Part shown: piece by piece, positions 5,259 through 46,600 of the stretch
Position numbering within the stretch: the first letter of the stretch is position 1
How the letters are laid out: every line of letters begins with the position of its first letter
Origin: Antedon mediterranea
Taxonomy: Eukaryota > Echinodermata > Crinoidea > Comatulida > Antedonidae
DNA length: 64,000 nucleotides
Assembly: GCF_964355755.1 (NCBI RefSeq)
Contig: NC_092677.1
Span: 13,724,601 to 13,788,600, forward strand
Direction of reading: 5' to 3'
Position numbers and translations under genes: made by a program
The notes under the pieces: model-generated
What the model was told of the DNA's origin: nothing
The model's input: the letters and a program-made list of their open reading frames with translations, nothing else
The model's database searches: none

Positions 5259-7903
5259 TATAAGAGAGATTATTGTTGTTGGTGACTTAAATTGGAATAT
5301 ATTTGATAAACAGCATTCTCGGAACATTAAAACCCTCCACCAAATTTTCCAATTAAACCAGTATATTAAAACTCCAACGCGCGTAACGGAAAACAGTAGT
5401 AGTTGTATTGATTTAATTTTTTCAAATAGGGATGACTTTATAAGCAAAACTGGAGTTGTACCAATTGGAATTAGCGATCACTCATTGATATATGCAATAC
5501 GTAAAAAAATTAAAATAAAATTGCCCCCGCGTATTTTACATACGAGAACCTTCCGGAAATTTAACGAAGATTTGTTTATTTCTGATCTTGCATCTGCTCC
5601 GTGGAGTATTTGTGAGGCGTCCGAGGATGCTGACGAGGCTTGGGACATTTGGAAACACATTTTTACTGATATTTGTGATATTCATGCTCCTATGGTGACG
5701 GTCAGGAGGAAGGGAACTGATATTCCATGGCTTACAGACGAATTTGTTTCTCTTTCTCGTGACCGTGATTATTTAAAACAAAAAGCCGAAAAAACTAAGA
5801 ACATAGATGATTGGAATTCTTACAAAAAGGCAAGAAATAAATTAAATAATTTGTCTAAATCACTAAAACGCGACTATATAAATAATAAATTAAAGGATAA
5901 TGTTAATGACACTAAAACATTATGGAAAACCATGAAAGACTTTTTACCCAATAAAAAGAAACAAACTAAAACAACTCTCAATGTAAACGGTAATGAAATA
6001 AACAATCCAACTGATATTGCTAATCATTTTAATAAATATTTTTGTTCAATTTCTAATGAACTTGCATCCCATTTTAATGACAACCAAAACGATATTACCG
6101 TTGAATCGTTATCACAATTTCAACAACGTTTCAACTTTAAAGATATTAATGGAAATGAAATTGAAGCTTTGTTGGAAAAGTTAGAAATTGGAAAAGCTAC
6201 TGGAATTGATGGGATTTCGGCTAGGTTACTTAAAATTGCATCTTCACAAATTTCTCAAAGTCTTGCCTTTTTGTTTAACTGGTCATTAAGATCTGGTGTT
6301 ATTCCAAGTGAATGGAAATGTGCTAAGGTTACTCCGCTTTATAAAGGAGGATGTAAACATGAACTTAACAACTACCGTCCAATATCTGTTATACCTATTG
6401 TTATGAAAGTTTTTGAAAGATGCATCCATAATCAAGTTATGAATCATATAAATGAGTTTAATTTATTATGTAAAAATCAATCTGGTTTTAGGTCGTTACA
6501 TTCAACTTCTACTACACTGATAGATGTATGCAATTATATATATAAAAATATTGATAATGGCTTGGTAACTGGAGCAATTTTTCTTGACCTAAAAAAGCCG
6601 TTTGATACGGTAGACCACGATATTTTATTACGTAAATTATGCACCTTTGGAATGATAAACACTGAGCTTGCATGGTTCAGTAATTATTTAAAAAATCGCA
6701 AACAATTTGTTAATTTTAATGGAAAAAAATCTGAAATTTTAAATGTCAACTATGGGGTACCACAAGGCTCAATTCTTGGCCCTTTGTTGTTTATTTTATA
6801 CATAAATGACTTACATGATAGTGTTGATGGGATTTGTAAAACAGTCCTCTATGCAGACGACACTGCGCTTTTTTATGCATGTAAATCAAATGAAGAGCTT
6901 ACAACAGTTTTAACTGAACAGTTGGAAAATGTAAAACAATGGTTAGATAAACATAAATTAACTCTAAACATTGATAAAACCAAATACATGCTTTTTGGTA
7001 CTCATGCACGTGTTAATAAAACAACAGATGAAACAGTAATTTTTGATAACATTCCGATTGAGAAAGTTGAAACGTTTAAATATTTGGGACTTACATTTGA
7101 TGAACAACTCTCATGGAAAGTACATATTGATTCTATATGTGCAAAACTATCAAAAATTCTACATCTATTTTATAGATTGAAAAGTTTTACATCTCTTAAA
7201 ATTATTAAAAGATTATACAATGCTCTATTTTTATCACATATTGACTATTGTTCAACAGTCTGGGGTACTGGTTCAAACGCCCATATTTTAAAATTGCAAA
7301 GGGTACAAAATAGAGCTGCACGATTAATACTAGGTGCTGATATTCGAACTCCTGTTAGACAAATGCATTATGATTTAGGTTGGCTAACAATTAAGACAAG
7401 AATTGAATATCATACAATTTGTACAATATTTAGATGTTTACAAGAATCTGTACCTTCATACTTATGTGATGTTTTGCAATATATTAGTAGTGTACACAAT
7501 ATTCAAACCAGAAACTATGAAAATAATCTGTTGTATTTGCCCAGATGTAACCTCGAAATATACAAACGTAGTTTTGTTTATTATGGAAGTTCACTCTGGA
7601 ATGGCCTACCTTATGAATTAAGAAAACAAAACAATTATAACCGTTTTAAATCACTTGTTAAGATTCATTTATTGTTGCCGGTGGTCTAGGATGGTTCCAG
7701 TGAAATATATTTAAATATGGTATAAAAGTATAATAATAATGAGAACATGCATTGAAGTTTAGTTTTAGTTTAAGTTTTAGTTTAAGTTTAGTTTAAGTTG
7801 TTTTCAAATTTCAAATTAAATGTGCCGTAGGGCCCCTCGGAAGAGCAGTTTTATTTTATTACTGAGAGGGCTACCCTACTAAAAGAAAACGAAATAAATA
7901 AAT
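5259..7903 (+). mobile_element. Jockey/CR1-group non-LTR retrotransposon, 5'-truncated
   Basis: The insertion lies between copies of the 9-bp duplication AAACGCAAG (5250-5258 and 7904-7912). The 5' end is cut inside the endonuclease domain. The 3' end carries TTTAGTTTAAGTT-type UTR repeats and an (AAAT)n tail at about 7890-7903, the usual short tandem tail of this group. The reading frame is still open, so the insertion looks fairly young. Confidence 0.85.
5260..7689 (+). CDS. LINE endonuclease (partial)/reverse transcriptase polyprotein
   Basis: The open frame runs from the truncation point; the first ATG is at 5485, but that is not a natural start. Before it are the C-terminal motifs of the AP-like endonuclease, VVGDLNW (about 5275) and ISDHSL (about 5470). 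The reverse transcriptase follows, with a YRPIS motif, FLDLKKPFDTVDH, VPQGSILGPLLFILYINDL and the catalytic YADD box (about 6850-6865). A C-terminal region with HIDYCSTVWG and LQRVQNRAARLI ends at 7689. In one palm motif a lysine (KKPFDTVDH) stands where A or K plus A is usual. The missing endonuclease N-terminus makes the copy non-autonomous. Clade assignment (CR1, L2 or Jockey) is from motif memory only. Confidence 0.85.
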   Translation: MREIIVVGDLNWNIFDKQHSRNIKTLHQIFQLNQYIKTPTRVTENSSSCIDLIFSNRDDFISKTGVVPIGISDHSLIYAIRKKIKIKLPPRILHTRTFRKFNEDLFISDLASAPWSICEASEDADEAWDIWKHIFTDICDIHAPMVTVRRKGTDIPWLTDEFVSLSRDRDYLKQKAEKTKNIDDWNSYKKARNKLNNLSKSLKRDYINNKLKDNVNDTKTLWKTMKDFLPNKKKQTKTTLNVNGNEINNPTDIANHFNKYFCSISNELASHFNDNQNDITVESLSQFQQRFNFKDINGNEIEALLEKLEIGKATGIDGISARLLKIASSQISQSLAFLFNWSLRSGVIPSEWKCAKVTPLYKGGCKHELNNYRPISVIPIVMKVFERCIHNQVMNHINEFNLLCKNQSGFRSLHSTSTTLIDVCNYIYKNIDNGLVTGAIFLDLKKPFDTVDHDILLRKLCTFGMINTELAWFSNYLKNRKQFVNFNGKKSEILNVNYGVPQGSILGPLLFILYINDLHDSVDGICKTVLYADDTALFYACKSNEELTTVLTEQLENVKQWLDKHKLTLNIDKTKYMLFGTHARVNKTTDETVIFDNIPIEKVETFKYLGLTFDEQLSWKVHIDSICAKLSKILHLFYRLKSFTSLKIIKRLYNALFLSHIDYCSTVWGTGSNAHILKLQRVQNRAARLILGADIRTPVRQMHYDLGWLTIKTRIEYHTICTIFRCLQESVPSYLCDVLQYISSVHNIQTRNYENNLLYLPRCNLEIYKRSFVYYGSSLWNGLPYELRKQNNYNRFKSLVKIHLLLPVV

Positions 7904-14993: not shown

Positions 14994-16460
14994 TTAAGGG
15001 CCATTGATGAGGGAGTTTGTAGCATCACGTCCAATCAGAGTCCTTCCTTCTTCTTCAAACTCCTCAGCAGTCTTCAATATTGTATCAGACAACTCTGGTC
15101 TCAGAACTTGTATCTGGTTTATTGTTTCCACATCCAAAGCACAGAAACAATGCAGTACCTTTATGATAAAACAAATGACATAAAATGTGAAAGAACTGTT
15201 TTGACACTTTTGTCTCTCTCAAATATTTTGTTATAAAAACCTTGAATACACATTTAGTAAAACATAAAAATACGTCTAGTCTAGGTTCTAGACCGAAAAG
15301 ATAAATATTTTGGCACATATGGCGTTTCATACGTATAATACTTAAGTTCACAATATTATTCCAGACAAAAATCAAAACGCCGACTGGTGGACTAACATAA
15401 AAAAAGACAATAGGCAAATTTAAAACATGTCTTGTAATACCTTTAAATTTAATGACATAGAGACAAGTCTCAATAGCTCCCTTTTTAAGTCTGCAGTTCC
15501 TTTGGTGGTGATGACAAGTTTCTCCAGTGATTCATGGAAGTAGTCTGCAACCAACTGGACTTCCTCATGAAGCTCTGTCATTGTTGTCATCGACAGTTGA
15601 GTTAAAGGAATTGGAGGACAGAGAATTCTTCTAATGCGATGTTTTTCAATCGTGTGATCAAAATCAATATTAACCACAAGATCTGGAGATGACCGCACAA
15701 GAGATTCCCAGGCACTTTCTGGAATCTCCACATGGTATTTGTTTTCACGCCTGCAACCTATTGAGAGGTATTTCAGAGGTCTTCGATCTAGTTGCACAAG
15801 AGCTTCAAAGACTTCTTTTGACAAGCTTTTGTAGAAACAACTGAGTCTTTGCAATTGGCGGCATTTTGTCACAAAGTTCAGCATACAATTAGAATGGATC
15901 AAACAGGTAAGCGACTGGTTTTGTATGTTAAGAGTATGAATTGTCTGGTGATTGTCTGCTAACAGATTCAAAAGTATGCCTTCTAAAGTAACAGACAGAT
16001 GATTAAGATGAACCGATTTAAGCGTGTAAACTACTCGATTTTTTGGATCAGCCGGGCCAAATAACTCGGCAAGACTACAAAGAAACTCTTCTCCGCGGAA
16101 GAACAATGGATTTTCTTTGGTGAATTCAATGGCAAGGGTTTCAAGTCTTCTTTCGTTTATTTGTGCCAAGTGGCTCAAAACTTGAGAGGATCGTGAACAG
16201 TTTTCTTTACTTGTCTGATCACATAATATCTCAACCTGCCTAAGATGTCGGGCATACTTATTTAAGAAATTCAGTTGGACGGAGTCTGTTGACTGTGTGA
16301 ATGAGAATGTAAATGAATGCCAGAGGTATGGAGAGTCAAATGAATCATGCCAATTTTTACAGACAACTGCAGCATTTAAGCGATCACCAATTGGAAGGTG
16401 AGAGAAAATATTAACAAGAATATGTTCCGGAAGAGATGACCAGATAAAAACAGAATTCAT
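14994..16460 (-). CDS. F-box protein, FBXO39/FBXO33-like
   Basis: Two coding exons on the minus strand, 15441-16460 and 14994-15158, joined in phase (AAG|GTATTA donor, TAAAG|GTACTG acceptor), give 394 aa. The N-terminal F-box is at about residues 8-50 (SSLPEHILVNIFSHLP, then AAVVCKNW). Degenerate leucine-rich repeats follow. The C-terminal region (AWESLVRSSPDLVVNIDF, then RILCPPIPLTQLS) resembles FBXO39 and FBXO33. Such proteins act as substrate receptors of SCF (SKP1-cullin-F-box) ubiquitin ligases; the substrate is unknown. The start ATG lies one base after a T10CAG acceptor-like tract, so a 5' UTR intron is likely. Reading through the intron gives only a short false end (VLQDMF). Assignment between FBXO39 and FBXO33 is tentative. 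Confidence 0.85.
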
Positions 16461-16639
16461 GCTGAAAAAAAAAACATATTAAAAAACTATTATTCAAATA
16501 CTAACCTAAATGATTTTACAGCAGTCCATGTGTTGTGTAACTAAGTCCAGACTTTAATTCTGCTTTAATAAATATGTGCATCAATAGTTACCTAACTAAA
16601 CTGTAATGACATTTGACAGCCTAATGAATGACTAGCCTA

Positions 16640-19468: not shown

Positions 19469-21610
19469 TTAATAATCAAATATTTTTACTGTTTTGTCTT
19501 CATAATTTGCCACTGCCAGTCTACGTGGATGGTGTGATATGATGGATAATCCAAAAGGACGGATAAGTCCATCTTTTTCTTGATCAATCCTTTTAAGGAA
19601 CTTTCCATTATTATTAAAGAGCTGTAGTTTGTTCTCACTTGATATTATGATGTTGTCATTATCATCAACTACTACTCCTCTTGGATATCGTACCTTACCC
19701 TCTATTGCACCTTCATTTACAAGGATTTTAATAAAATTTCCCTCATTATCAAATAATTTTAAGCAGCTTTGACTACAGTACATTACAAGAATATTCTTTT
19801 CTCTTGTAAGCGCGACATCTTGGCAATCACCAGTATTGGGTGCTATTTCCTTAATGAGCTTTCCACTTTCAATGTTAAACATGGCTACATTCTTACCATT
19901 AGCTACATACATGACACCTGATTCTTCATCCACATGAATACCACGTGGAGATGTCAACACTCCCTTACCAATTAATTTAACCACCTCACCATTCATAGTG
20001 CATATTGTGATGCATGCATTACTGTTATTACTAAATACTATATTACCATTGTTCATTTTGATCAATATGTAATATGCTTGCACACCTTTTGATAGTGTAA
20101 CCATATCTATGTATTCACCTAATTGCTTGTATTTGTACATGACATTGTCTAGACATGAAACAAGCAAGCAATCATCTCCATAAGTTACTACATCAACTAC
20201 ATTTCTATCTATTTTTATAGTTCTTAATAATCCTTCTTTCTCCACTTTGATAGTCATTGGTGACTTCTTAATGTGTTCACCATCAACTCCAACATCAACT
20301 TTGCAAATCCCTGCACTTGTGCACCTTCCTTCTACAGTATAGTCACCATTGTCATCTTCTTTTACTTGAATGATGGTTGTCTCTCCTGTTGCTTGTGTCA
20401 ATGTAGCTTTTAAATCGTTTGCATGTATTTTACATACATCAGTTTTAATTATTTTAACATTGATTGTTTCACCTGTTGTCATATTCTCACATCCTTTTAA
20501 TGCTAAACATTCCGCCCTTGATTGTATAACAATTCCAATATCTTCATGCAGTGAGGCAATTTGCTGATTGTTTTTTAGAAAGTAAATCTCAGCATTACCA
20601 TCAAATTTTGTTTCAGAAGCTTCCTTGATCTTTTCATCCAGTGCTCTAATGACATCATTACCAGATAACATTGCAGTTGCTTCGTTGCCCTTCTCTAGGT
20701 GATGAAGCAAATTGATGTTTGTATTTATATACGATATTGATGATGTCACATCCTCTATGTTAGCATCAGTTGCCTTCCTCTTGATTTTGTACAGTGCCTC
20801 CACCTCACCTTTTAATTTGTCTCCACTGTCTCTTATTCTTGTTACCAATTCTTCAACATGATTTTCAATTCCTCTCAAACTTGTTTCCCTCTTTTCATCC
20901 AGTTTCTTTACACGATCAGTCATTACTTTAAGATTATCATTCAATTTTCCTGTACATTGTGTAGCAACTTTTTTCAAATCCGAGGATGTTTGTTTCAACG
21001 TTTTAAATGCATCGGATATGCTGATGGTCATGTGCTTGTCTTTTCCTTCCCATTCCTTGTGATCCATGATTGAACAGTGTATACAGATGGCAACATTGCA
21101 TATTTTGCAAAACACTGTTAAAGGCTCATTGTGGACGGAACACATAGGTGGGTGCATGGCATTGATTTCACTGACACTCATGGATCGAACATCTTCCACC
21201 GAATGCAACTTGTGATTTTTGCAAGATGGTATGTTCTTATGGGCATCATTACAAATGTGGCACAAATATCGTCTGCATTCTTGACAGTAGGTTTTAGACT
21301 GACCTTCCTTTCCACAAATGCATTTTGTCTCATCTGTATTTGTAAATTGTTCAATTGTTTCTAACAAATTATTCAGAAACGTGTTGGGTGGTAATTTCTT
21401 TAGACCGCCCTCTGGAATCTGATAAGATTTCGAGCAAGTTGGACAGGTTACTTTGTTAGTTTTCTTCAACCAGTTTTCAAGACAACTCAAGCAGAAGCTG
21501 TGAAGACAGGCTAAAGTTCTGGGTTCATGGAGTCGATTAAAGCATATTTGGCACTCTAAAACCTTTTCATCAACATCTTCTAGAAATTTAGCCAACTCAC
21601 TGGTAGCCAT
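19469..21610 (-). CDS. TRIM-type E3 ligase: RING, two B-boxes, coiled coil, filamin repeat, NHL
   Basis: A single uninterrupted exon of 713 aa. The RING finger C3HC4 ligands are C20, C23, C35, H37, C40, C43, C56 and C59. B-box 1 (about 94-140, CICG...CQEC...CHIC) and B-box 2 (about 150-195, CSVHNEP...CKIC...CIHC) follow. Next are a coiled coil (about 200-300), a filamin/ABP280-like domain (about 370-455, ending GEHIKKSPMTIKV) and NHL-type repeats to the C-terminus (SPRGIHVDEE, YPRGVVVDDNDN, RPFGLS). This is the TRIM2/TRIM3/TRIM71 architecture, known for ubiquitin ligase and RNA-binding roles. ATG 21610 is chosen because only a TTG codon precedes it, and TTATTTGCAG, an acceptor-like sequence, abuts it; a 5' UTR intron is therefore likely. 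An intronless CDS suggests a lineage-specific or retro-derived paralogue. Confidence 0.9.
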   Translation of the reverse strand: MATSELAKFLEDVDEKVLECQICFNRLHEPRTLACLHSFCLSCLENWLKKTNKVTCPTCSKSYQIPEGGLKKLPPNTFLNNLLETIEQFTNTDETKCICGKEGQSKTYCQECRRYLCHICNDAHKNIPSCKNHKLHSVEDVRSMSVSEINAMHPPMCSVHNEPLTVFCKICNVAICIHCSIMDHKEWEGKDKHMTISISDAFKTLKQTSSDLKKVATQCTGKLNDNLKVMTDRVKKLDEKRETSLRGIENHVEELVTRIRDSGDKLKGEVEALYKIKRKATDANIEDVTSSISYINTNINLLHHLEKGNEATAMLSGNDVIRALDEKIKEASETKFDGNAEIYFLKNNQQIASLHEDIGIVIQSRAECLALKGCENMTTGETINVKIIKTDVCKIHANDLKATLTQATGETTIIQVKEDDNGDYTVEGRCTSAGICKVDVGVDGEHIKKSPMTIKVEKEGLLRTIKIDRNVVDVVTYGDDCLLVSCLDNVMYKYKQLGEYIDMVTLSKGVQAYYILIKMNNGNIVFSNNSNACITICTMNGEVVKLIGKGVLTSPRGIHVDEESGVMYVANGKNVAMFNIESGKLIKEIAPNTGDCQDVALTREKNILVMYCSQSCLKLFDNEGNFIKILVNEGAIEGKVRYPRGVVVDDNDNIIISSENKLQLFNNNGKFLKRIDQEKDGLIRPFGLSIISHHPRRLAVANYEDKTVKIFDY

Positions 21611-22079
21611 CTGCAAATAATTTAAAATGTTACCTTCAATAAAAAAACAATATTATAATTGTTCATAATTCATTTTTTTATTGAGCAGTTCAGCATGAAT
21701 GAAAAATCAATCAATTTTGCATTTATTCTAATATAATTATTCGACTGTGTTGTGACGTAATAATAATTCTGTATTCTCTAGTCGCACAAGTAAAAGTATG
21801 ATTTTTTGGGGTCGTCATAGCTAGCAATACCATGCTGGCAGAAGTTAACCTATCCATCTGTCAGAGTTGTGCATGATTTGAATGATATGCGCAGTGATTT
21901 CATTGTTCAATTTGTTCAACATCCCATACAATTTGAAACAGCACTGTGGAAAGTGACACTGACAATAATGTATGCTTTCATATTTTTATGACAAAACATG
22001 TTTGTGCATAAAAAAAAATTACAAGCATCACAATTAGTACTACTAGTATGTACTCTCTCTCACTCCGACGAATACAAAT

Positions 22080-22637: not shown

Positions 22638-25600
22638 ATGGCTGACAATTACAATCCGTTTTTAGATGATATTGATTCAGATACTGTCGGTGTTAGTATT
22701 GCAGATTGTATTGAAGTTGATGTAAATAGTAGTCAGGAAGAATTATCTACTCGTAAGGAAACGTTAACACCACAACCAAATGAATTAAACTGGGATATAA
22801 TCGCAGCTAAGCTAATCAAAGACAACCTGGTTCTCACCGCCCTCGAACTGCATACTGAGTTGGTAGAGAGCGGCCGAGAGCTGCCCCGCCTCCGCGATTA
22901 CTTTTCTAACCCTGGGAATTTTGAAAGGCAAGATAATACATTCAAAGATGCAGGAACTCTACCACTACGTAAGCTAATTTTAAATCATAAACTATTATAG
23001 TTTATTCTAAATTTCTTTTAATATTATTTTTACATTACATTGAATTTAAATTAATAAAATAAAGAATGAAAACATTATTGTGTGTGATGAGGCTATGCTA
23101 GCTATATGGCCCTGCTGGCTCGGATTAGGCCAAGTTGAGCCGCCGACAAGTTGAGCCGCCACCAGAAAAACGTTATTTTTTATGGAACGCCAAATGCTAA
23201 CTTTCGCCGGTGCTCGTTCTATTTATATTAGGGATCGATGTACATTCAAAAGTTTATATATCATGGTTTTTAGTATATATATTATTAAATATTATAATTA
23301 AAGAAATAATTATGAAAATCTGGCTTGTAGATTCCAAAATATAAAACATCACCGAAAGTGATCGTTTTAGCCAAAAATGACGTAAACATGTTGCCCCTCA
23401 GTCGGCAGTTGTATGAACTAGGCTTACTCCATTTTTCGGTAAAATAATTACATAAAATCACGTTTTTTAGTAAAATATTTTGTGTATTAACATTGTAAAA
23501 TTCAATAAAATATGATATTAAAAGATTAGTAAATAAAAAATAATATTTATTTAACCTCATTCGAAGAAGGTTAATACTCTATTAATTAGTCCTGAGAGAG
23601 GACAACATAGGCCATCGGGTGAAAATCCTATCGTTCAATCCCGTTCCAGTCTCATTAGCCTAAAAAAACTCTACATGATAATTATGTTAATAATATTTTA
23701 AAAGTAATAACACAAAGTTTCACCTAAAAAACGTATCATATAACAAGGAAATCACATTTCAACGTCAGTATTTGAAAATTTTTTTACATTGTGTTGACCC
23801 ATGACCTTTTCCACACGAAACTCTTTTAGCCAAAAAATGTTTTTTTTTCATTGAGGTTTTATTCATTAAATAAAATATTTATTCACAAAAACTACATTGA
23901 AGAAGCTCAGTGATATTTAGTATATTAATTATAACAGAAAACTTGATAATAAAACAGTATTATCGTAATTTTAGTACAACAATTGTTAACGATTTGGTGA
24001 ATATGGACGCGTGACATGAACTGTGCACAAACAACAGCATGGCTTCGATTGATGAAAGCCACGTTTGTGATCTTCAAATAAAATGTTGTTTTCACCATGA
24101 AAACATTACTGATAAAACGGCATTTCCAATTACGGAAGTTCGATTTTATAAGGTTGTTGCTTGTACCAAGTTATGGGTAAACTTAGATGGTACCTGTAAA
24201 GATATTGCTAATAAACTAGTATCCGAGCTAGATATTCTTAATGCGTCATATGAAGACATAATAACAAAGCATCCATATTTTGGATTTCATCACCATTGTT
24301 ATCGTAAATACATCAACACAAGAACGATAGAATTGGTAAGTTTAACACATTCACTAGCCTAGGTTTATTTCCTTTAGTGCAAACGATTCAAACCAAAATA
24401 TATAAAATTAGGCCAACAGAAGAGTACCCTCCTCCTACCTTTCCTCCAAAATAAGGTCCTTATCTAGTCCTAGCTAGGGCCTGGCCCTAGCCTAGGCTAT
24501 AATGTATACGCCCTGACAGTGACTCGAACAATGAAAGTAACTAGACTAAAAATTAGAAGTAGGCCAACAAATAGATATAATATACAACTGTGCAGTGGTA
24601 GTAAACTGAGAAACTCTACATTGCCAGTTAACAAAATTATTCTTAATTTTTCATTCAGGCTGAAAATCGTGTGTCGAAAAAACGAAAAATGGAAAGTTCC
24701 CAGCCAACTGACCTTGCTAGTACTAGTAGTACTGCTAGTGATCCTCCACCTACTAAGAAGACAAAACATTTGTTACGGAGCAAGACCCGTATCAGTCAAT
24801 CAGGGACTATTTTACCTAAAGTATGTATCATTTGTAAAAAGGCACAGAAGCAGATTAGAAAAAATTACAAAACCTGCAACCAGAAATTGAGAAAGGCTCT
24901 CACAGATGATGCAGGTAAGAGCCTTTTAAAACAATTAATACAATTTTTTGTACGTGGTATAGATTATGTACATATATAACTTATTAACCATTTTTTTATG
25001 CTGTATATTTAAAGGATTCCTAAGAGCAGCTGCTGAAATGAAAAATGACCAAGAAATGTTGAAGGACATACACGGAAAGAGCTGTGCTTGCATTGAAGTG
25101 AGGTACCATGACTCATGCTACAGGGAATATATAAAAATTGTGCACCGAAAGAAACATATTCATGCAAAGTATGTTTAATTTTATTTATGTTAAGTTATTG
25201 TATGTAAGCCTTATTATTATACATATTATTATTACTGTATATATTAATTTGATATATATCATATACCAACCAAGAGATTTGTCATTATTTGTTCAGGTCT
25301 TCAACAAAGTCATTTTTTGATGAACATAAAAAAGGCTACAATGTGTTTTGTGAAACAATTATTAAAGGAAGAATGAAAACCGGTCAAGAAATCATCAGAT
25401 TAAGTAAACTTCAGAAGTACCTTGACAAGTATATTCAAGAAGAGGAACATATTAATTTGGGATATGTAAGGTACTGTATGCAGTTTGATTAATTTTCTTA
25501 CCTTACAATGGAACATATGCGTAATAATGATATTGTTAATTTAATTTACCTTCACAATAAGTTATAGCTTCTAATGCAATATTTTGTTTTATAACAGGTC

Positions 25601-28600
25601 AGATTTACTAAAAGCAAAACTCGAAAAAGATTTTCCAGAGCTTGTATTCCATTTACCAAGTAAAAGGTTAGTAATTACAAATTGTAGATATATAGATGGT
25701 AACCCATAACAAATTGGAATGCTTTTTTTTTTAACAATTTGAATGTATGTATACTATATTATAATAAAGTAATTATACTTTTTTTGGCATTTTTTAGGAA
25801 TGAGGCAACCATGGTTTATTTTGCTGACATATCCACAGGCTCTTTTGCTGAGCAATTTTTGGAATCAGAAGAGAGTACTGACCTGTCATCAGATGCATCT
25901 GTTAATCCTGATATATCTACCACTACAAATAAAGAGGAAAGATATCATTTGCAAGATGAATCACGAACAATTCACTTAGCAGGTAAACCATATTGTATAA
26001 TTGTTTTAGACAACATATGAATTCATTAAAATAATAGCCTATTTAATGGTAACTTTATTTGTCTTTACAGGCCTGATTTTAAAGAATGCAATCAAGACAT
26101 CAGAGTCAATGGACTATAAGTGGCCTCCACGAGCAAGTGATATTAACAATGTAGTTATGAGTGACATCATTCCATTCCACCTTTTTAATATCTTGGCAAT
26201 ATGTACCAACACAGTACAGGAACACATTGATCCATCGATGGCAAGTGTTCCAGAAGAAATCCGAAATAAACTTGAGGCAATCTGTCAAGACATTGTGTAC
26301 TTAGCTTCAAGAGGCAGGCGACAAACACCAAAATCCTTAGCACTTGGTCTTACTGTTAGGCATATGACTGGTTCCACGCACCTCTTAGATGTATTAAGTA
26401 AATTTGGACATTGTAGCTCTCCAGACACTATTGTTTCATACGAAACAAGTCTTGCGATGTTTCGATTGTCCACTGCTAATGCTGTTCCGGATGGTTTCAG
26501 GCGTGGGGAACTTGTTACTATGGTTTGGGACAACATTGATTTTAATGAAGAAACCACAAGTGGCCAAGGCACAACACACCACACCAATGGCATTATGCTT
26601 CAAGTGCAAAAAGATGATCCATTGCCAACTTCAGAAGAACGTCCAGTCATTAAAAAAGGTATCCGTAAATTTAAACATGTGGAAGTTGAGCTGAATGAAT
26701 ACAATCGTGTAAAGCGTGTTGGTCCATCATGCAATGTTCACGATCCAGAAAGCTTGTCTGTTGATAACTGGAAATCACTTCTCACTCCTTCCCAAGAAGC
26801 AGATTTCAGATTTTTGATGGCAAGGCTATATGGCGGTGCGTCCATACCTGGATGGACAGGCTACAACATCACTACCCACAACTACAGTATCCAAAAAACT
26901 GCAATTCACTACTTACCTGTGATAGAAGCCTCTGCTACAGAATTGACAACTATTAATACTGTGATATACAAAAGTATTGATATGGCAAATAGGTTCATGT
27001 TACCGCATATAGTCTGTGTCTTTGACCAGGCTATTTATGCAAAAGTACAAGAAATTCGATGGGCTGATGACAATTTGAAGAGTAGACTCGTTGTTCGCCT
27101 AGGTGAATTTCACACCTGCATGTCCTTTATGTCCATTATTGGAAAGAGATTTAGCGATACCGGTTTTCAAGATATTCTTGTTGAGGCAGGTGTTGTTGCT
27201 GGTGGATCGATAAAAGGAGTTCTTTCAGGTCATCACTACAATCGAGCCATACATACTCATAAAATTATATTTGAGACATTTGAACAACTGAGATTCCATG
27301 CCTATCTTGATTCACTTGAAGAAGGTCAATATGACACTACCATTTCCCAATTGGAAGGAATTGATTGGAAAGATGTTCAAAGTCATAGAGATGATATTCA
27401 AGACATTTACGGCATGTATGAATGTTACATAACGATGAAGAGGAAAGATGATCCAACTTTTGACTTTTGGAGCTCTTACCTTGATATGGTTTCGTTGCTG
27501 TTATCGTTCATACGAGCAACTAGAACGTCTGATTGGCAACTTCATCTAGCCACAATCAGGATGATGCTACCATGGTTTTATTCATATGACCGAACCAACT
27601 ATGCCAGGTACCTGCCAGCCTACTGGGTAGAGATGCTAGAATTAGAGAGGACCCACCCGAAAGTCTACAAAGACATATGTCAGCAGGGAACATGGACTGT
27701 TCAACGACAAGACAGATATCCATTTGCATCTATAGCATGTGACCAGACTATAGAAGAAACCTTAAACCGAGATTGCAAAATACAAGGAGGTATCAAAAGG
27801 TTCACATTGAACAGATCTGCAGTTCAACGTTGGTTGCTAGCCCAACCTGAACGTGCGGAGATTGCCAGATCCTGTGAGAGGATGTGCGGATTTGAAACTG
27901 AATTTCGTAATTCAAAAGAACTTGATGGCACACGAATCAAAATGATCAGGGACTTAGTGGAATCTGTCAAGTCTACAACCTGTAGCATGGTCAACCCGTT
28001 TACATGTTCCAGTGAAGAATTGTTAAACATAAGTTCAGGTGCAGTGGCTATTGAAAAAGTCCGTTCAGATCTTCTGACAGCGTATGATGTTGGGGAGAAA
28101 GAAGCAGATGAATTCTTAAAAAGCAGGATCTGCAGTACTGGAACGACCTCATTGTTTGCAACAGTTAAGCAAAAGAAATTGAAAACCTTTCAAGACAACT
28201 ACAAGCAAACAAAAATAAGTTCTACAACTATAGTGAAAGGGAATAAAGAGCTGTACTCCCGACTGCTTGTTGTTGGGCAAACTCGTGGCATTAACATGAA
28301 GGAGGTTATGTCATTCTGTCTGGGTGATATTCCCTTTCCATTGGCCAACGGTCCGAAATCCTTGGTAAAGACAGACAAAAGTTCACTGCTAAAGATTTTG
28401 GAAGGCAAAGGTGACAACTCAATTTACACATCAAAACCTGATCCAAATAGTGCACTCATGATTGATGCAATGGCACTACTTCAAGCTATTAGTAAACGCA
28501 ACATACCAAATACACTTGAAGAATTAGCTATGAACATTTTGAAGCAACTACAGTTTATTGCCTCATCATACAAATGTTCGCGGGTGGATTTTGTTTGTGA

Positions 28601-31600
28601 CAAATATCCAATTGTCAGCATTAAAAATCTTGAACGTGAAAAACGAGCTGGAAAGGGATCAGAGGTCATCAAAATCTATGGACAAGAACAGAAAACCCCA
28701 AAGCAATACAAGAAATTCTTGTCAAATGGACAAAACAAAGAGGCTCTTATAGAATTTATTTTTGAAACTTGGTCAAAATCAACAGGTATCACAATATCAT
28801 TTCCAGTCTATGTTACTCATGGAAGTCATTGCCATAAATTGACTTGGACAGATGGTGTTTGCAATGCTGTTAATGTGCCGGAATTGTTTTGTGACCATGA
28901 GGAAGCGGATACTAGATTAATTCTACATGCTGAGCATGCCAGTTATTCACACTCAAGTATAATTATCAAAAGTCCTGACACAGATGTGGCCATTCTTGCT
29001 TTAAGTCATGCCGAAACAATTCAGTCGCAGGTATTTTTTATGACGGGACACAACAACACAAAACGGATTATCAAGATCAACAAGCTAGCTGACATCCTAG
29101 GATTGCGCTTGTGCAGAGCTCTTATTGGGCTACACGTGTTCACGGGTTGTGATTCCACAAGTGCTTTTTATGGAAAAGGCAAGAAAAAAGCAATGGAGGT
29201 GATGTCTAATGCTGATGAGTACCTTGATGTTTTTCAAGAATTAGGGTCTTCATTTTCTATGTCTGACCAGCTGTTAATTTCACTAGAACGATTTGTTTGT
29301 TTGCTTTATGGTCATAAAAATGTAAGTCTTATCAATGAAGCAAGGTATTTGTCATTCTGCAAAACAGCATCTGAGAAATGTTTGCCACCATGTCAGGATG
29401 CACTTCTACAGCACATAAAACGGTGCAATTATCAATCTACAATTTGTCGTATGGCAACAACTCCTGTAGTCAACGCACCATCACCAAATGAACATGGATG
29501 GACAGTGGATGATTCAAAAATTAGTGTAAAATGGATGACTCAGGACCCAGCACCGCAGACATTATTAGAAATAATAAAATGTGGTTGTAAGTCTGGATGC
29601 AACCAAGGAAGGTGTCAATGCAAAAAATCAAGTATGAAATGCTCTGATCTCTGCCGCTGCACCAACTGCGAGAATAGACTGGAAAACAAAGCTGATGATG
29701 AATCAGAAGATGAAGAGCTTGATGATATCTGTTTGGATGACCTCTTTGCATAGGCTTTTTAATACCTTTTACTTACTGTATTTTACTTGTGACTTGTTTA
29801 ATGCACTGTATTATTTTGCCTAACAATAATCATTGTTTATAATGAAGGGATAAATTTTGTGTCATGTTAGAGCATTAAAGTACTTTCATGCACAATTTCA
29901 TATTCCCTACATTTATAATGTAGTATTTGTTATGTAAGCTGTAGAAGTTAACATACTACATTAGTATGGATTTTGACCACAGCCCTGGTTTTTGACTTGT
30001 GACTTGACTTGAACTTGGTTCAAAATGCCTACAATAATAAAGGGATCAATGTTGTGCCATGTTAGAGCAATTGTGCTTCCATGCATTATGTGCCTCATCC
30101 CTACATTCAAAATGTAGTATTTGTTATGTAAGCTGTAGAAGTTAACATACTACATTAGTATGGATTTTGACCACAGCCCTGGTTTTTGACTTGTGACTTG
30201 ACTTGAACTTGGTTTAAAATGCCTACAATAATAAAGGGATCAATGTTGTGCCATGTTAGAGCAATTGTGCTTCCATGCATTATGTGCCTCATCCCTACAT
30301 TCAAAATGTAGTATTTGTTATGTAAGCTGTAGAAGTTAACATACTACATTAGTATGGATTTTGACCACAGCCCTGGTTTTTGACTTGTGACTTGACTTGA
30401 ACTTGGTTCAAAATGCCTACAATAATAAAGGGATCAATGTTGTGCCATGTTAGTCTAGAATTGTACTCTCATGCATACATTATATTCCCTACATGTGGGA
30501 AGAATGACAGAGAACCTTCACGTGGTCCTTCCTGTTATGCCTTAGGGTAACCGATCTCTGCAACTATACCAATATTACTTACCGTATGTTCATTCATGTT
30601 GAATTATATAACGGATAAAATATATAAATCTGATAGCATTAGTATCCTTTTATTTTTGTAATTTGTAAATTCTGTATATGCATCTTATCTGTACATATTT
30701 TACAGTACTGTGTATTTTACTTTGTGTTTTAACATTTAAATGATTTTATTCTATTTTTATATTAAGTTGCCATGAGAAAAACCAATTTCAAATCTTTCGT
30801 TGATGAAGTTATCTTGTATCTTGTAAATCTAAACATTAAAATTTAGTTGAAATGTGTTGTGGTCTTAATTAAATGGTTTAATTTTCAAAAGTATTGATAG
30901 AAATAAAGAAATAATTCAAATGCTTTTAGAATTATATATATAACGTGTATTTGATGGCAGACACTCGTTTATAATTGTAAATTAAATAAACTACAGTAAT
31001 TTAACTTATGACGCGACTTGACTTAGCCTGACGCGTTTTACCTTGACAGTGACGCGATTAGATTTTAATTGACGCGATCTAACGAGTCGGGACGTAACAA
31101 CGTACAATTACCACGGTACTCGTCCACGCTTTTTGCCTGTTACTTCAGCGGGATGTTTTTAATCTTTCGGGCTAGCGATGGTCTTTTATCAAGATAATTG
31201 TGCTTATGTGATACGGTATTTTGGTGAAAAAGTTCAAATTATTACTTAAAACATGTTAATAGATTGATCTATGACAATTTTTTGTATACTAAAGAGGTTG
31301 GAGCGAAAAGTGTTTTCTAGTGGCTTTTTTTTCTTCACCCGATGGCCTAACATGACTTTACGTGGTAGGCCTACACGTGGCGAGAAAAATTATGAGTGCA
31401 CTGAATTTTTTCCTCGAAAGATTAAAAACAATTACATTATTAAATATTACTACTTTCCTTTGCTGTGTTGTTAATTATAATATGTAATTATATATTATTT
31501 ATTTTCATGACACAATAAACCAAGACCATGAACTTATGTACTAGGACACCATCCTAATCACTACGCGAAATGTCGTAAAAGACGCATGCACTGGGCGTTT

Positions 31601-34600
31601 CATAGAAATCACCGGCGGCTCAACTTGTCGGCGGCCCAACCGGTCATATCCCGCTGGCTCGAGTTGATGGATCTGATGGATTCTCTACTTCACGTTTTTT
31701 TTTGTTTCAGAGAGATTATTTAGAGGGTTAGGTTTTTAATATTTAGGAACTTTTACCGTACCATTAGCAAACGGAAGCACTCTATAATAATTACAATAGA
31801 CCTTAGTTTTTAGAAGTATGGATACGGTACCATATCTTTATTTAGCCATGGAATGGGATGGCGAAATATTAAATCCTTTTCATTCATTGCTTGGTGTATG
31901 TGCTGTATTTATATAGTTAGTACTGTAGTTTCCTGTTTTGTGTTTTTCTAAATCTGAACCTCTTGTATATTTAGTATTTATATTGTTTGTATTTATTTTA
32001 TATTTATTTTACTTTCAGTTATGATTGTTTCACTCCTAACCCTTTGTTTTGTTTTCTGTCAGAACGTACTTCCAGTGTCGCGACCTTTGACTCTTTGGAT
32101 TTTGCCCGTTACTCTGATGACGGTGTTAATCAGGCAGATGAACGATGTGCCGTTTTAGAATTTGAATTAAGAAAAGCGAAAGAAACAATTAAATCACTAA
32201 GAGTAAATTTAACAGAGGCCGCAGGTAATACTAATTTTCATTGTATAATCATTTTGGCTGGTTCCAATTAATGCAAATTTGGTGTATTATGTTAAAATGT
32301 ATAGGAGCTTTATTTTTTTCATAATGTTCTGTGCATTTAACTAAATTCTAGCAGTATGACTAACAATTGATTATTTTTTTTAACCAGCTGCAAAATTTTT
32401 ATCAAAAGACAGCAATCTTAATAATATTCATCATTTATTATACCTGTGCTAATGTACTGTGAAATAAAAGTTTGTTAATATCTAATAACCGACGACCGAT
32501 TACTGTAATTTAATACTAAAAAAAGTTCTTTATTAGCAAACCTTTATATAGTTCTTTATAATCCTTTACATTTAGTGATAAACAGTCTATTTTGTGCCTA
32601 GCTTACCTGGATAAACCGATAATAGCCCTTTCTCCTCGAAGAGCGAGATATACCTCATAAAGTAGACATTTTTCACATTTTATTCTTACAGTACTGTATA
32701 TCTGGAATTAATTAGAATGTCCTAATTTCAATGATTTAAAAATATGATTTATAATTTAATCTTTATGATACTATTTAGTAATTAATTTGTAATGAATCTA
32801 AAACCTCTACCATTGACCTATAAATTAAATATGTCCATGATTCTACTAAGCACAATTGTAAAATATAAACAAACTGTAAACAAATTGTTTTATTAAATAC
32901 AGACATTAAAAGATTCCATTAATATCCAGAAAAATGGAATGAATGAATTAATTTTCAGTAGCCTATATCATCAATGGGCAGTTTGGAGTTTGTTGAAGTC
33001 TATAAATTATTTTACAGTAAATTATTTACTTTAGTATAAATTATTCCAGATTTTGTCAGAAAACTAATCATTTTTTGCATTTTCCTTTTACTAACTTGCA
33101 TGTACTGTACATAATTTTTCGTTGTCATAAGTCCTTACACTCTCTATGTTGATTGATTAAGTTTGAGTAGGGAGTAATTACAAGACAACTCACTGGTTTG
33201 AGGTTGAATTTAATTATCCATTAAACTAAGCTTTTGTATTGTAAATTTTGAAATATTAATTATTAATATTAATGCCTTCTTTACGCAGAGAGTCAGATGA
33301 ATCCTTATTATTAAAAGCTTTTCAATGTTATGAAGTAAATTATGGACATTCCATGTAACGACAATGTCTTACTTGGCAACATATTTATATTATACCAGGA
33401 GATTGAGTAAATGATTTTAGATAATAGACGAGTGTAGAGTAACAAAACATCTATTGTACTATTAGTATTTGATCATTTTCAAGAATCTCATTATTTTCAG
33501 GATTCTTAATGATTAAATATTGTAGATCCAAATGTTGATTTCTCAAAAGTGTCTTTTGTCTCTGTCATTATTTAGAAGAATACATATGCATGTATTATTA
33601 TTATTCACAATTACTTCATTTCATATAATTATTTTCAGCTATTGTGTTTTTATTATTAAACAAACAAGGAAATAAAATAAACCAATCATTATAATCATAA
33701 TCAATATCAAAATCATAATCAATCATAAAGTGGTTAATTAAATTTATTTACTTCATCTTTGCTACCAACGTTATAACTTTAACTTTATTTCAATACAAAA
33801 TTCAACACTTGAATCATCAGATCGAAGGCTGCTACTTATTATAATACTACTGTATTTACGAAAGTTATAATTTACGTACTTATGATTAAAAAACTCTACA
33901 AAAAAAGAGAGACTTACTATTATTGAATCATATTTTATCTGAAACATATTAGTACAGTAGTAACCTGCACATACATTATTTACAATATTGGTGATGATAA
34001 TTGATATCATAATTTACATTGAGAGTGGATGAAGTTTAATCTAGAATGAATACAATGTGAACAATGGGTCTCTCTGATATAAATAATCTATGATTTCCCC
34101 AATTGTTGTATGTAATTTGTGTATTGTTCTCTTTTGAATACAAAACACTATTATTATTATTATATTTTCCATACACTGTACTGTAGTTACAGCAATAGTA
34201 CCTTTGTAGAAAGGGATTAATAATCCTTACATTCATTCAAATATTTTACCAGCATAAAAATTAGAGGAAAAACTATTATGAATAATGTTGACAGTATTCA
34301 ATACATGTATTAATAGTATAGAGAATTGATTTTTTATAAAGAAGAATAATAATTGTGTTATTTTATAGCATTATATAATATAATGTTGGGAAAGGGGAAA
34401 GCTGAGCACAGGATAGTCTCCCAGTAGTAATAGTAGTAGTACATAGTAAAGAGGGAAGCCAATTTTTCTTATTTTAAGCCCTTCAAAAGGAGTCTTCTAC
34501 GTAGATTCTTTTGTTGAATTTTAAGTTTTTTTACATTTGTTATTTTTTCTTTTTTTAGAGTGTGAATTATCGTCACCTACTCACAGTAAAAATGATAATG

Positions 34601-40600: not shown

Positions 40601-43600
40601 ATTTAATGTTTGACAAGATATACATGACTTTGAATTATTTATACAAAACCTTTAGCAACTGTTCTATGTGAAGTTTTATGTTTATTTACTCCATATTCAT
40701 TTCAACTTTTCTTTGATGAAAACGCTCTCACAACATGAAAACTAATGACCATAATTAAGGAATAAAATCAATCTTATTATACTATATATTATGTATTGTC
40801 CCCAAAACATTAAAAAAAAATAATGATGAATAAAATCAAACTTTAGTATTTAAGTAGTTTAAATAAGGATATTTACTTTCACCAAGAAACAAAACAAAAA
40901 TAAGAATTCAGATTATTCAGAAAATGACAGGATATTATAAATAATGATTGTCTTTATCAGGTACATATTTATTTTTTCTGATTCAATTTTTGGTTTATTA
41001 TGTGTCGTCAACAAAAAAAAAGGGGGAAATATCTTTAAGATAGGTTACCTGCAAATTGCCTCTTTTGGCATTGTCATATTATAGATATCATATAGAAACA
41101 GGTATATAGCATATACTTACATGTAAACTGTTTCCAGATGTATGTAAAATGAACTTCTCTTAATTCTGTTACATAAATTATTCTACACTAAATATTAAAT
41201 TGCAAGAATACTCCAAGGAATATATATTTCTGTAGTTAACATCTTCCTGGTATACACTGAACTCAAATTAATCAATTATATACTAATGAACTGCACGTAA
41301 ATCTGATTATCTGAGATTGATTAGTTTTAAAGTGAGGCCACATTAGATTTGTGATCTATCAGTATGTGTATTGTATGCGTTCATATTTATATAAGTTTAG
41401 TACAGTTGGTTTGAATAATCATACAATATTAAAGATGATGATTTTTTTTGATTTTTTATTATTTCATAGTCATCCAACAGTCAATTACAGGATGGATAGA
41501 TTATTTTATAATATATTGTGCTTATAAACTAAATCTCATTTGATGCTTAGGGAGTGGAGTTTAAATAGTTGTGACTTACAACCCTGGCACTAGGTCAGGA
41601 TTGTATTTTTTTTGTAAGACTCTTTGTTTATATGTTAGAAATTTCTAAAAATCTTATTTCATTTCATTCATTTACCTGTCCACACGATTAAACTTTAAAT
41701 TACAAAAAAATGTGATATGCCCATATATGATGATGTCATATCACTACTATATTTAGCCATCACTACCAAATTTAGGCACATCACGCTTTTTTGTTATGAA
41801 TTCCTTAATAATGAATGTGTAAATCTCTTTCTACACTATCAAACTATGATTAATCATGTTTTTTTTTATGTAGACAAATGATTCTTCGAGGTTGTGTAGC
41901 ATTTGCCCAGCATGTTGGGCCTGCTAGACTAGAGGAGGAATTATTACCGCAATGCTGGGAAGAGATTAGTCATAAATACCAAGAACGTAGATTATTAGTA
42001 GCTGAATCCTGTGGTGTGCTAACTCCACATCTGACTGTAAGTAATAACACAGTTAAACATTAAATCTGGTTTTTGAAAGAAAGATACAGTCATTCAACTG
42101 AAAAGTAACATCCTTTTCACACTGAATAAATTGTTAGTCAAGTCAAGTCAAGTATCATTTATTATCATTTGTTTTAGGAAAAACATAGAAATTCTGTTTG
42201 CTCTGTTGGCGGAGCACAATATCCAACGGGCACAACACGAACTCAAAAACAAAAACATTACAAAAAAAAGTGTCTACATCATATTTAAGGCTCTAATAGA
42301 TCCTGGAAAGAAACTATTTGTAAATCGTGCCTTATTGGCCTTAATAGAACGAAATCGCCGACCGCTGCGCATCAACTGGAACATACTAGAGGCCGGATGA
42401 AATCTTTGATAGCCACTGCCTGCTATTTTGATCTCCCAATTTATTACAAGTTTAAAGAATGGAATAATTTACCAATTAACATTAAGGAATCAAAAACTGA
42501 ACTGTTTGTTGTTTTAAAAGTAATGTTAAAAAATATCTACAGGAACGTACACTAGTAGGAGAGACTAGTAGGAGAGCACTTACCTGATGTTGAATCCTTG
42601 TATAAAGAAAATGTGTTAAAAAAAGTAAAAAGTATCATTGATGATGAAACACATCCTCTTCACAAACAATTTGCTCTCATGAATTCTGGCATAAGACTAC
42701 GTGCACTTAATACCAAAACAAAACGGTTTAGGTGCTCGTTTGTACCTAATGCTATACACTTATATAACTCCAGAGTACAAAGGTAAAATGTAACCGATAA
42801 TTTTTATCTTATCTTATATTTATTTTTAGCCTCTTAACTTTTTGTGTGTGTTTTTGTAAATTGTATTTTATATTTTTGTATTTTGCCAGTTTTCAAATCA
42901 CATTTCTGTTTTTTAAATGGACAATAAAGTATATATGACTATGACTAGCACTAGAAACTATTTAATAAGCGCTTCTTCTATTTTTTATAGTCCTATTGTT
43001 GTTTTTTTTGTAATTTTTATATGTTTCATTGTATGTCTTTTTGCTGTTCTTTCAAAGGACCTCATTGGAAACAAGTCCGTAGAGGAGTTATCCTTGGCAT
43101 CCTTTCTTGTTTTATTCATGGTTTTTTATATTTTCTATTTTTAATTGTATGTCTGTGATTTTTTATGTACTGATGCCGAAATAAATCAAATCAAATCAAA
43201 TCAAACATACGTGTTCACAAATGTGGGGGAATACTCTGTGACTTGCAGCCTACTGGGCTGAATTGTGCACAGGTGTGGACGACAACTAGAACAATTTAGA
43301 GTTCTTTTCTAGCATACAAATGATACAGCACTATACATCTCATCATTTCAAAATGTCGCTGTAAAAACTGGATAAAAAAAATATTTACCTGAAAAAATGT
43401 AATTTAAAGCAAAAAATACTTAAATTGTCTTTCAGTCAATTGTTTTTGGTTAAAATTAACCGTTTTTGGCAGAGTTCTTTTTTTACAGAAGTGATTAACT
43501 TTATTAAAACTGCAAAATGGCATATTTAAAGTCTAATTTTATTAATCTTCATTTTTCATGTTTTTGGCGGACAATACATCTTTGAAAGTTTTGTTGATGC

Positions 43601-46600
43601 ATCAATAATGTTCTTTAAAACTTTTCCATTTCAGAAAGAAATACGTAGTTCTCTATTGCTATCCATGCTTCAAATGATGTTAGATGACAAAGCCAATGAA
43701 GTACGTCAGGCAGTCATCAAGAGCCTAGGAGTTGTTCTCACTTGGGTAGATGACCAAGATAAGTACAACCTAGGCTGGGAGCTTCTATGCAGAGGCCTAC
43801 ACGACAGTTCAGAAGCAGTGGTAGCTACAACTTTGAAGGTGCTCTTGCCGTCTTTTTCCAGCTGGGCCTTAGAGTTAGGCCGTCTAGAAAAACAAATAAT
43901 TGGCCAGTTGCTTAAGAAACTTGAAGACTCTGTAAAGGTATATTATATTATTTTAAATTTTGTTGAGACTGCAGTAAATGCTCTCAAAATTAGACCCCAT
44001 AAAGCCTAAAAATCTTCCAAAATCGTTAAAAATCATGACTTTGTAAAAACCACATTTTGGGGCACCATGATTGGTTCATGTTTTTTCTGTTTATGATTGA
44101 TTAAACTTTAGTTTAACTGATAAATGATAATTGTATTCTTTATTTAAAAAAAATCTAAATCGCTGAAAGAACTGAATCACTGATTTTTACAATAGTTGAA
44201 ACTTTTCAATGTAAGAAATTTTTCTGTGGCAGCTTCAACCCTGTGGAATTCCTTAACAATTCCAATCATATAGCGTGCCACTCTAAGCTCTTTCAAGAAG
44301 AAGTCTTTCCTTTTTAAACAAGATTTTCATTCATTTAACTTATTGCCACTTCTCGTCTATTTTAAGTTATGTACAGCGCATTGAGAGCTTGCTTATATGA
44401 GAATGAACTATTATTATTATTAAACAATGTATCTCATAGTGTGTATACATTTTTTTCCAAATTTAATTCCATTGAATTATGTTTGTAATTGCTCAGGTGT
44501 TATGTTTTACAGAATGTGAAAAGCAATCCATCGTCTGACAATGCAGCAGATGTACATTCTATACAAGTGTATTGTCAAACACTACAAACCTTGACGCCTG
44601 TACTATTTGCAGCTGTTTTGCTATCCGCCCCATTCACACAAGGACTGGATATTGAAGGAGCTCAACCATTAGAAGGTACAGTTAATGACCATTCACACTA
44701 CAGTTTAAGTTGAATAAAATATAAGCCTTTATTTTGTATGTGTATTAATAATATATCTGATTGAAACTTAAAGATGTATTGTCCCCCAAAAACATGAACA
44801 ATATAAGATTAATTAAGTCAGACTTTGAATAGGTTATTTTGTAGTTTTAATAAATTGAATACTTCCATAGAAAGAATAATGTTATCACTTATAAAAAGAC
44901 AAAAGAAATGATTATTTTTAACCAAAAACCATTGTCTTGCAGACAATTTAGGTATTTTTTGCTTTAATTTTGTTTTCATTAAAATGGCATATTCAACAAA
45001 AAATGTTTACAAAATTGTCTTTTTTTAGGGGGAAAATAAATCTTTAAAATTAAAAGCACATATTCATAAGTTCTTATGATATTTAATATTTTATTTCAGT
45101 TACTAGGTTTCCAAAGCCATATTCTGGGCTTTTAGACCTTTCTGTTTTAGTTGGAAGTCGTGAGCTGCTGGCGGCTCACGTTGGAGCATTTGAGAGCCAT
45201 ATAGGACAGAGCAATCACCAGGAATGGGATACTTATAGTTGGGTACTTAAAGAATAGTATGTATTCTTTTTTTCTTATTCATTCTGCTTAATGTTTCTAT
45301 TCTCTACAGTGTTTAGTTAATAATACATGGTTTGACATAAGAGTATGTGAATCATTATCTGTGTTTAATGAGGCGTAAAAAGAGTGATTTGCTAACACTG
45401 ATAATTGTCAGCATATAGTTGTTGAGGGAGTTGTTATTAGAGTCTAAACAACTCCCTGGTAATAGTTATTATATGGAAAGTGAAGGTATGTAGATGTATC
45501 TAGCCTTTCTAATAGATTTCTTAGATCTGAATTTATGCTAAGTAAACATGAGGGATGTTGAATGTTGCTGAACAGCTTATGCAGTAAAGCGCCAGTAAAT
45601 TTATTACACATAAAAATCATGATCCTCTCAGGCATCTGGTTTATTTTAAATAAATACCCTTCTTGAAGGACTGTATGTACATTAATTCAAAATATTCAAA
45701 GCATAAAATGTGATGTATTAAGCCTTTTTTCCAGTCAACGTAACGTTTTACGGTTAGCTGGACCGATAATATTTACACATTTTTACGCGATCGTTCATAG
45801 TTGCTTCGTTCTCTTGAACATTGCTGGGACATGCAAATGTGAAGTGTTGCAAACATCGACTGGAAAACAGGATCTAAAAATATAATATTAATTGTATAAC
45901 TAAGTATTGTTATATATAATATATTTAATTTATTTCTTTCATTGTAGTTTACCAAGGCTACTTGAGGTTAGCTGCAATCTAGACATGCTATATGTTGATA
46001 GTATAAAGGCCCTTTCAAAGGTTCTGAACAGTCTTTCGAAAACCTTTGGCAAAAGTTTTACAGAAACAAGGGTAAGCTTTAATTAATATTGAGTATATCT
46101 ATAAGAACAATTGAATGTTAAACTACTTTTGCTTACTTGTTTGCATTTTACTGTTTTACAGTTAAAGCCAAAATTTCAAGCCATGTTGAATGTACCGGAT
46201 GAGCAATATGGTAAGTCTTTTTATTTCTAATTAAACAGAAAACCATGTTTGTTTATGTATAGGGTGTTGTTTTCTTTGACCTATCTGTATAAAGTTGTCC
46301 ATATCTAAAATAAAAATGAGGATAAGGATGCTCCCACTTGTGTAAATATCCTTGTGTCTGTCCACATGCGTGAACTACTCAGTACAATTATAAACTTACT
46401 GGTCTTAAGCTCTGTCTACACTACCAAATTTTATGTGACAAAAAAATGTGATGCGCCCATATATGGACATGATGATGTCATACTACCATATTTAAGCATA
46501 TCACTACCATATTTAGGCACATCACATTTTTTTTGTCACATGAAGTTTGATAGTGTAAACAGAGCTTTAGGTCTGAACGCGATGTTACCAAACTCGTGTT

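Follow-up and report, generated by a model that had tools for sequence, protein, structure and literature searches.

The DNA analysed here, referred to as the window, was a stretch of 64,000 nucleotides from the crinoid Antedon mediterranea (contig NC_092677.1, positions 13,724,601 to 13,788,600 of the forward strand). It very probably (we estimate a probability of about 0.88) holds two nested DNA transposons: an older, non-autonomous element of about 786 bp in an apparent host-gene intron, and a later, 7,742-bp insertion of the Academ/AcademX type, a type compared by description only, with a 3-bp target-site duplication (TSD) and a gene for one spliced protein of 1605 residues. The nesting, the ends and TSDs, a near-identical second copy, deletion derivatives, the intact frame and a set of conserved acidic residues were observed directly. 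The inner transposon is real and recently mobile, and the outer element, which is similar to a miniature inverted-repeat transposable element (MITE), is unrelated to it. The original prediction had combined the outer ends, a border repeat and the gene into one 8.5-kb element (23123-31652), a view that did not hold, as the ends recur on short, gene-less copies and a second copy of the gene on another contig (C5) lacks them.

Nested arrangement of the two transposons

The boundaries of the two elements, with their terminal inverted repeats (TIRs) and duplications, were as follows.

23114-23121, unstranded: left 8-bp TSD of the outer element, GCTGGCTC, identical to 31653-31660
23122-23607, + strand: left part of the outer element, 486 bp, beginning with GGATTAGGCC and ending with the target ACA; sister copies of 620-828 bp have the same ends
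23605-23607, unstranded: left 3-bp TSD of the inner element, ACA, from the empty site GGACAACATGAC in sister copy L007
23608-31349, + strand: inner, autonomous-looking transposon, 7,742 bp, Academ/AcademX-like; the second copy, on C5, has one mismatch and its own TSD, CCA
23608-23623, + strand: left TIR of the inner element, 16 bp, TAGGCCATCGGGTGAA (inverted pair I18, 100%)
31334-31349, - strand: right TIR of the inner element, a perfect inverted copy (pair I18, 100%)
31350-31352, unstranded: right 3-bp TSD of the inner element, ACA, from the empty-site and copy comparisons
31350-31652, + strand: right part of the outer element, 303 bp, ending with CATATCCC; 31350-31352 is the duplicated ACA
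31653-31660, unstranded: right 8-bp TSD of the outer element, GCTGGCTC, identical to 23114-23121

The second gene copy matched the window solely across 23606-31349, with a single difference in 7,742 bases at 26391 (Val486 in the window, Ile in C5). Its flanks were unlike the outer element: the 486 bp on the left and the 303 bp on the right were both missing, and it carried a duplication of its own. With the inner ends set at TAGGCC...GGCCTA, the duplication was ACA in the window and CCA in the C5 copy. An inner TSD of 4 or 5 bp with shifted ends would fit the window alone and was rejected, because the C5 copy gives CCA only with TAGGCC...GGCCTA. Twenty sister copies of the outer element were compared at the insertion site: 17 were uninterrupted and three were deleted there. 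In L007 it read GGACAACATGAC, exactly the expectation for an insert-free site with a single ACA, while the other uninterrupted copies mostly had ACG where the window has ACA.

Four shorter derivatives of the inner element (L026-L029; 3,114, 4,499, 3,135 and 3,917 bp) had common internal deletions, two of them with extra sequence. Their 5' ends were identical to the window over 343 bases, and over 320 bases at the 3' end the match was perfect or almost perfect. Together with the C5 copy, these derivatives bear out the earlier claim of recent mobility. Exact 3-bp TSDs were present in five of the six copies of this family (ACA, CCA, ATA, ATT, TGA) and in four of five copies (TCT, TAC, TAG, AAA) from three related families, whose ends likewise start with TAG. 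At 1/64 per copy, nine exact duplications among 11 copies would arise by chance with a probability of 3e-15, a figure that takes no account of the duplications having partly guided where the ends were placed. The two copies without an exact 3-bp TSD, L028 in the family itself and L030 among the relatives, count against this picture.

The outer ends proved to be inverted, as first claimed, with 83% identity over 40 nt (23121-23160 and 31614-31653); when both were aligned to start at GG, 32 of 39 positions matched. The 9-bp sequence GCTGGCTCG was indeed found at both borders, as originally described, but it does not stand as a TSD: with the ends at GG, as in the sister copies, the window's duplication is 8 bp (GCTGGCTC), its left ninth base is the first G of the element, and it belongs to the outer element. 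Among 20 short sister copies taken for comparison, both ends were recognised in 18 and the right end went unrecognised in two. The TSD in these 18 was an exact 8 bp in 11, an exact 9 bp in three and 8 bp with one mismatch in two; the other two had no duplication at the expected position.

The original view of one 8.5-kb transposon, bounded by 26/27-bp inverted ends and duplicating 9 bp of target, is very unlikely. In its favour, inverted ends and a 9-base border match do surround the gene, and exact 9-bp duplications occur in the three sister copies mentioned. It was rejected on three counts, namely the short end-pairs, the limits of the C5 copy and the uninterrupted sister sites. Searched against the genome, the outermost 278 bases on the left and 300 on the right gave the best 40 of 342 and the best 40 of 265 candidates, respectively (lower bounds), and pairing of these lists yielded 28 end-pairs. 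Among the matches listed, 27 pairs were 620-828 bp apart and the window's alone was at 8,530 bp. The second gene copy begins 486 bp and ends 303 bp further in, with its own TSD, and sister copies hold the site uninterrupted. That the gene is a domesticated host gene with repeats around it by chance, which a long, multi-exon, intact frame within an apparent gene intron could suggest, has a negligible probability and was rejected on the copy evidence, as a 99.99% identical copy with the same termini and a different TSD lies on another contig and four deletion derivatives exist. The genome search with ends and protein that had been proposed at the outset thus gave a divided answer: the gene is a transposon with further copies, but the ends then named do not flank those other copies.

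A 22-bp stretch of the outer ends had 391 genome matches with at most two mismatches (192 forward, 199 reverse; control 0), and gene-less copies of about 790 bp carried the same outer ends. The element is short, is present in many copies, is bounded by TIRs and a TSD and has no transposase gene, as in MITEs and other non-autonomous elements. Since these ends recur around short copies with duplications, the outer element is a MITE-like unit running from GGATTAGGCC to CATATCCC. An autonomous partner, which was hardly sought, was not found among the first 100 of the 391 end matches (all exact, contigs C1-C4). By eye, one copy of the outer element (L049; G000:C3:23788378-23792298) appeared to be enlarged to about 3.7-3.8 kb by repetitive-looking inserted sequence.

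The predicted spliced gene and its protein

The gene of the inner element is predicted to consist of seven exons; they are listed below with the protein domains and a repeat array downstream of the gene.

24039-24335, + strand: exon 1, with the first Cys/His module, residues ~16-88 (C-x2-H ... H-x2-C-Y)
24659-24914, + strand: exon 2, in which the second Cys/His module begins (C155-x2-C158)
25015-25168, + strand: exon 3, in which the second module ends (H216-D-S-C-Y); at both junctions the homologous block of L053 is interrupted, at most two residues away
25297-25470, + strand: exon 4, from the spliced-frame translation and alignment with relatives
25598-25666, + strand: exon 5, which in L036/L053 and in L034 reads on into exons 6 and 7 without a break
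25798-25982, + strand: exon 6, from the spliced-frame translation and alignment with relatives
26071-29753, + strand: exon 7, with the transposase core, the nuclease, the CXC cluster and the stop codon
26253-27863, + strand: predicted RNase H-type transposase core with a helical insertion, residues 440-976; candidate triad D532 (or D535), D697 and E940; includes DUF6589
28374-29486, + strand: XPG/FEN1/Exo1-type nuclease (predicted), residues 1147-1517; acids D1177, D1222, E1323, D1325, D1348, D1350 and D1406
29577-29678, + strand: Tesmin/TSO1-like CXC cysteine cluster, residues 1548-1581, under the Pfam cut-off
29904-30485, + strand: three tandem 194-bp units within the inner element, 3' of the stop codon, 100, 98 and 85% identical to the reference copy

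The frame of 4,818 nt was open across six GT-AG introns and ended in a single terminal stop after 1605 residues, in agreement with the original prediction. Related families lend support to the splice model: their homologous frames either read across most junctions or stop no more than two residues away. The closest relative, L053/L036, has 51% identity in the core; there, a homologous block of residues 13-186 spanned intron 1 and one of residues 292-420 spanned introns 5 and 6, and at introns 2 and 3 the blocks were interrupted at a distance of at most two residues. This relative therefore shares intron positions 2 and 3 with the window gene, whose introns lie within 24336-26070, and is without introns 1, 5 and 6. 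Residues 118-420 were found in one frame in L034, and L030, L031 and L032 had open frames of 1550, 1550 and 1534 residues, respectively, without the introns of the window gene. L035 was translated through two stops for alignment. Because the presence of introns differs between the window gene and L030-L032, L034 and L053/L036, introns seem to turn over from one related transposon family to another within a single genome.

For the core, a model of residues 440-1114 built from 14 sequences (alignment A2) had a predicted local distance difference test score (pLDDT) of 84.4 and a predicted template modelling score (pTM) of 0.85. Pfam DUF6589 was found at residues 648-940 (E 1.4e-6) and matched seven of the 14 members of A2. 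The first 14 rows returned by a second-look structural aligner (VIA) were all DDE recombinases. P elements make 8-bp TSDs, as opposed to the 3 bp of the inner element, and are not known to carry an XPG nuclease. The P element (PDB 6p5a) was the best structural match of the core, with Z 10.4 and a root-mean-square deviation (rmsd) of 5.1 over 364 aligned residues, at 9% identity and with no sequence-profile match. It was followed by ISCth4 (Z 8.1), Hermes (8.1), RAG (6.5) and Tn5 (6.1). A DDE-type fold is likely on the strength of these VIA matches. Strand order and conservation suggest a triad of D532 or D535, D697 and E940: D532 and D535 were D in 11 of 11 covering rows, D697 in 12 of 12, and E940 was E in 13 of 14 rows. 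A sequence search with exon 7 against the PDB gave no match.

The C-terminal part is predicted, by its modelled fold and seven acids, to belong to the XPG/FEN1 nuclease superfamily and to have the corresponding activity. Modelled from 15 sequences (alignment A1), residues 1110-1605 had pLDDT 86.3 and pTM 0.83. The first 44 Foldseek rows were XRN, FEN1, T5, XPG/Rad2 or plastid Exo1-like 5'-nucleases, and E was <=0.001 in 15 of these; row 45 was unrelated. The second-look alignment gave human Exonuclease 1 at Z 15.8 (rmsd 3.9, 266 aligned residues, 12% identity), FEN1 at 14.5 and XPG at 12.5; to these three nucleases the predicted domain is thus alike in fold and acidic motifs, but it has only 12-15% identity and is fused to a transposase. 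All seven positions were acidic wherever covered in A1 (D1177 and D1222 in 13/13 rows, E1323 and D1325 in 14/14, D1348, D1350 and D1406 each in 15/15). They fall in the motifs bearing the seven FEN1 acids, the motifs being matched by eye. Pfam XPG_I was found in one of 15 A1 members (E 0.0056), and Pfam TCR (CXC) was below cut-off in four of 15. The CXC cluster could be seen by eye in 10 of 15 A1 rows and was absent or past the sequence end in the others.

Several results weigh against these fold assignments. For the core, DUF6589 in the window protein was barely over its cut-off (27.8 vs 27 bits), Foldseek returned no match at E<=0.001 and its rows were mixed and unrelated, the A2 profile had no match among PDB sequences, and L032, an otherwise open frame, has Q at the proposed catalytic E940. 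According to the notes to VIA, a Z below about 13 may reflect no more than a common arrangement when models are mostly helical; because the Z values of the core fall in this range, its DDE fold is likely and not proven. For the nuclease, Foldseek TM-scores were low (0.28-0.44 by query length over the first 44 rows), and the profile match to PDB sequences was weak, the best being Exo1 at E 0.11 in two collinear pieces. The earlier description of an Academ-like gene with an XPG/FEN1-like nuclease, D/D/E-like core, duplicated Cys/His modules and TSO1-like cluster is supported.

Relationship to Academ and to other elements in the genome

Elements of the Academ type are described with an XPG-like nuclease. 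A passage in PMC10045372 gives TSDs of 9 or 10 bp for AcademH and 3 or 4 bp for AcademX and links them to their helicase and nuclease, respectively, and one in PMC3627910 places a RecQ helicase in Academ. The inner element agrees with AcademX in its predicted nuclease and in its 3-bp TSD, as far as AcademX is described in that passage of PMC10045372, and likewise in having terminal inverted repeats, here a perfect 16 bp. It differs from AcademH as given there in its TSD (3 bp vs 9 or 10 bp). Unlike in AcademH, Pfam found no helicase family in the 1605-residue protein; the inner element has seven further frames of >=80 aa outside the gene (longest 138 aa), and these gave no helicase at E<=0.1 either. 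An AcademH identity was rejected on helicase and TSD. The inner element is therefore most likely a fresh member of the known Academ/AcademX group, compared by described traits only.

The combination of domains, first judged unusual, is not supported as a one-off: 19 other loci (L030-L048) all matched both the core and the nuclease queries, and a nuclease with a 3-bp TSD fits AcademX. These loci were taken from the best matches of a genome search, unclustered, and several are copies of one family. In addition, L051 had core, nuclease and CXC in one frame of 1259 residues. Other families of similar architecture were L030/L031, L032/L033 and L034, of 7.0-7.3 kb with open frames of 1524-1550 residues, L033 having one stop. 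Since the pairs L030/L031 and L032/L033 were each about 99% identical within the pair, these two families are young too.

A genome search with DUF6589 gave seven matching places, six of them over the cut-off. The strongest was a frame at L050 (E 1.9e-20), which adjoined a Helicase_C frame on the opposite strand (E 8.9e-16). L050 (G000:C5:20778500-20788499) and L052 (C9:8118665-8128664) both had a DUF6589 frame with a C2H2-like finger on the + strand and a Helicase_C frame on the - strand, and were about 99% identical at their two places. A helicase frame beside DUF6589 is what the helicase lineage would lead one to expect, and the two loci would represent an AcademH-like element within this genome. 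The inner element shares DUF6589 with this helicase-bearing locus, and because the family matches both the window core and the frame beside the helicase, it bridges the nuclease and helicase kinds. As the A2 core profile did not match the L050 frames, the link from the core to L050 rests on DUF6589.

It is improbable that the nuclease-bearing elements are a DDE superfamily distinct from Academ which gained an XPG-type nuclease and a 3-bp TSD independently. In its favour, the link to Academ was drawn from described traits, the core had no Foldseek match at E<=0.001 and A2 did not match the frames at L050. Set against this, DUF6589 matched the core as well as the frame beside the helicase, with the values given above, and a nuclease together with a 3-bp TSD is what the cited passage of PMC10045372 reports for AcademX. 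In the literature searched, no mention of DUF6589 was found, Academ and XPG were not found together as whole words, and no fitting title (titles only) combined XPG, TSO1 or FEN1 with transposons.

Genomic setting and proposed mechanism

The insertion site is plausibly intron 1 of RELCH. A HEAT repeat lay downstream of the inner gene on the same strand (43530-44006, E 2.3e-6), but Pfam gave nothing above cut-off on the upstream host exon. By eye, three further frames in the window resembled known protein types.

5239-7686, + strand: open frame of 816 codons resembling an endonuclease/reverse transcriptase of the long interspersed nuclear element (LINE) type
15423-16478, - strand: frame of 352 codons resembling an F-box protein
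19472-21652, - strand: frame of 727 codons resembling a RING/TRIM-type protein

In the mechanism proposed for the inner element, the double Cys/His modules at the N terminus and the CXC cluster at the C terminus would bind DNA. The RNase H-type D-D-E core would cut at the TAGGCC ends and join them to target strands 3 bp apart, and the XPG/FEN1-type nuclease would process the 5' strand or flaps, at the transposon ends or at target gaps. Copies that share these ends but have lost internal sequence would have been moved in trans. A more specific version, which we consider tentative and on balance doubtful, is a two-nuclease transposase, in which the D-D-E core would handle the 3' ends while the fused FEN1/Exo1-type 5'-nuclease would cut or trim the 5' strand, shortening an ancestral stagger of 9-10 bp, as in the helicase lineage, to 3 bp.

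The nested-insertion test applied here corrects the boundaries of an apparently intact transposon. The analysis also ties DUF6589, an uncharacterised Pfam family, to a predicted transposase core; if the two-nuclease reading were true, the family could be assigned a role within the transposase core of Academ-type elements. With two nearly identical full-length copies whose ends and TSDs are defined, the transposition of a nuclease-bearing, Academ-type element becomes directly testable.

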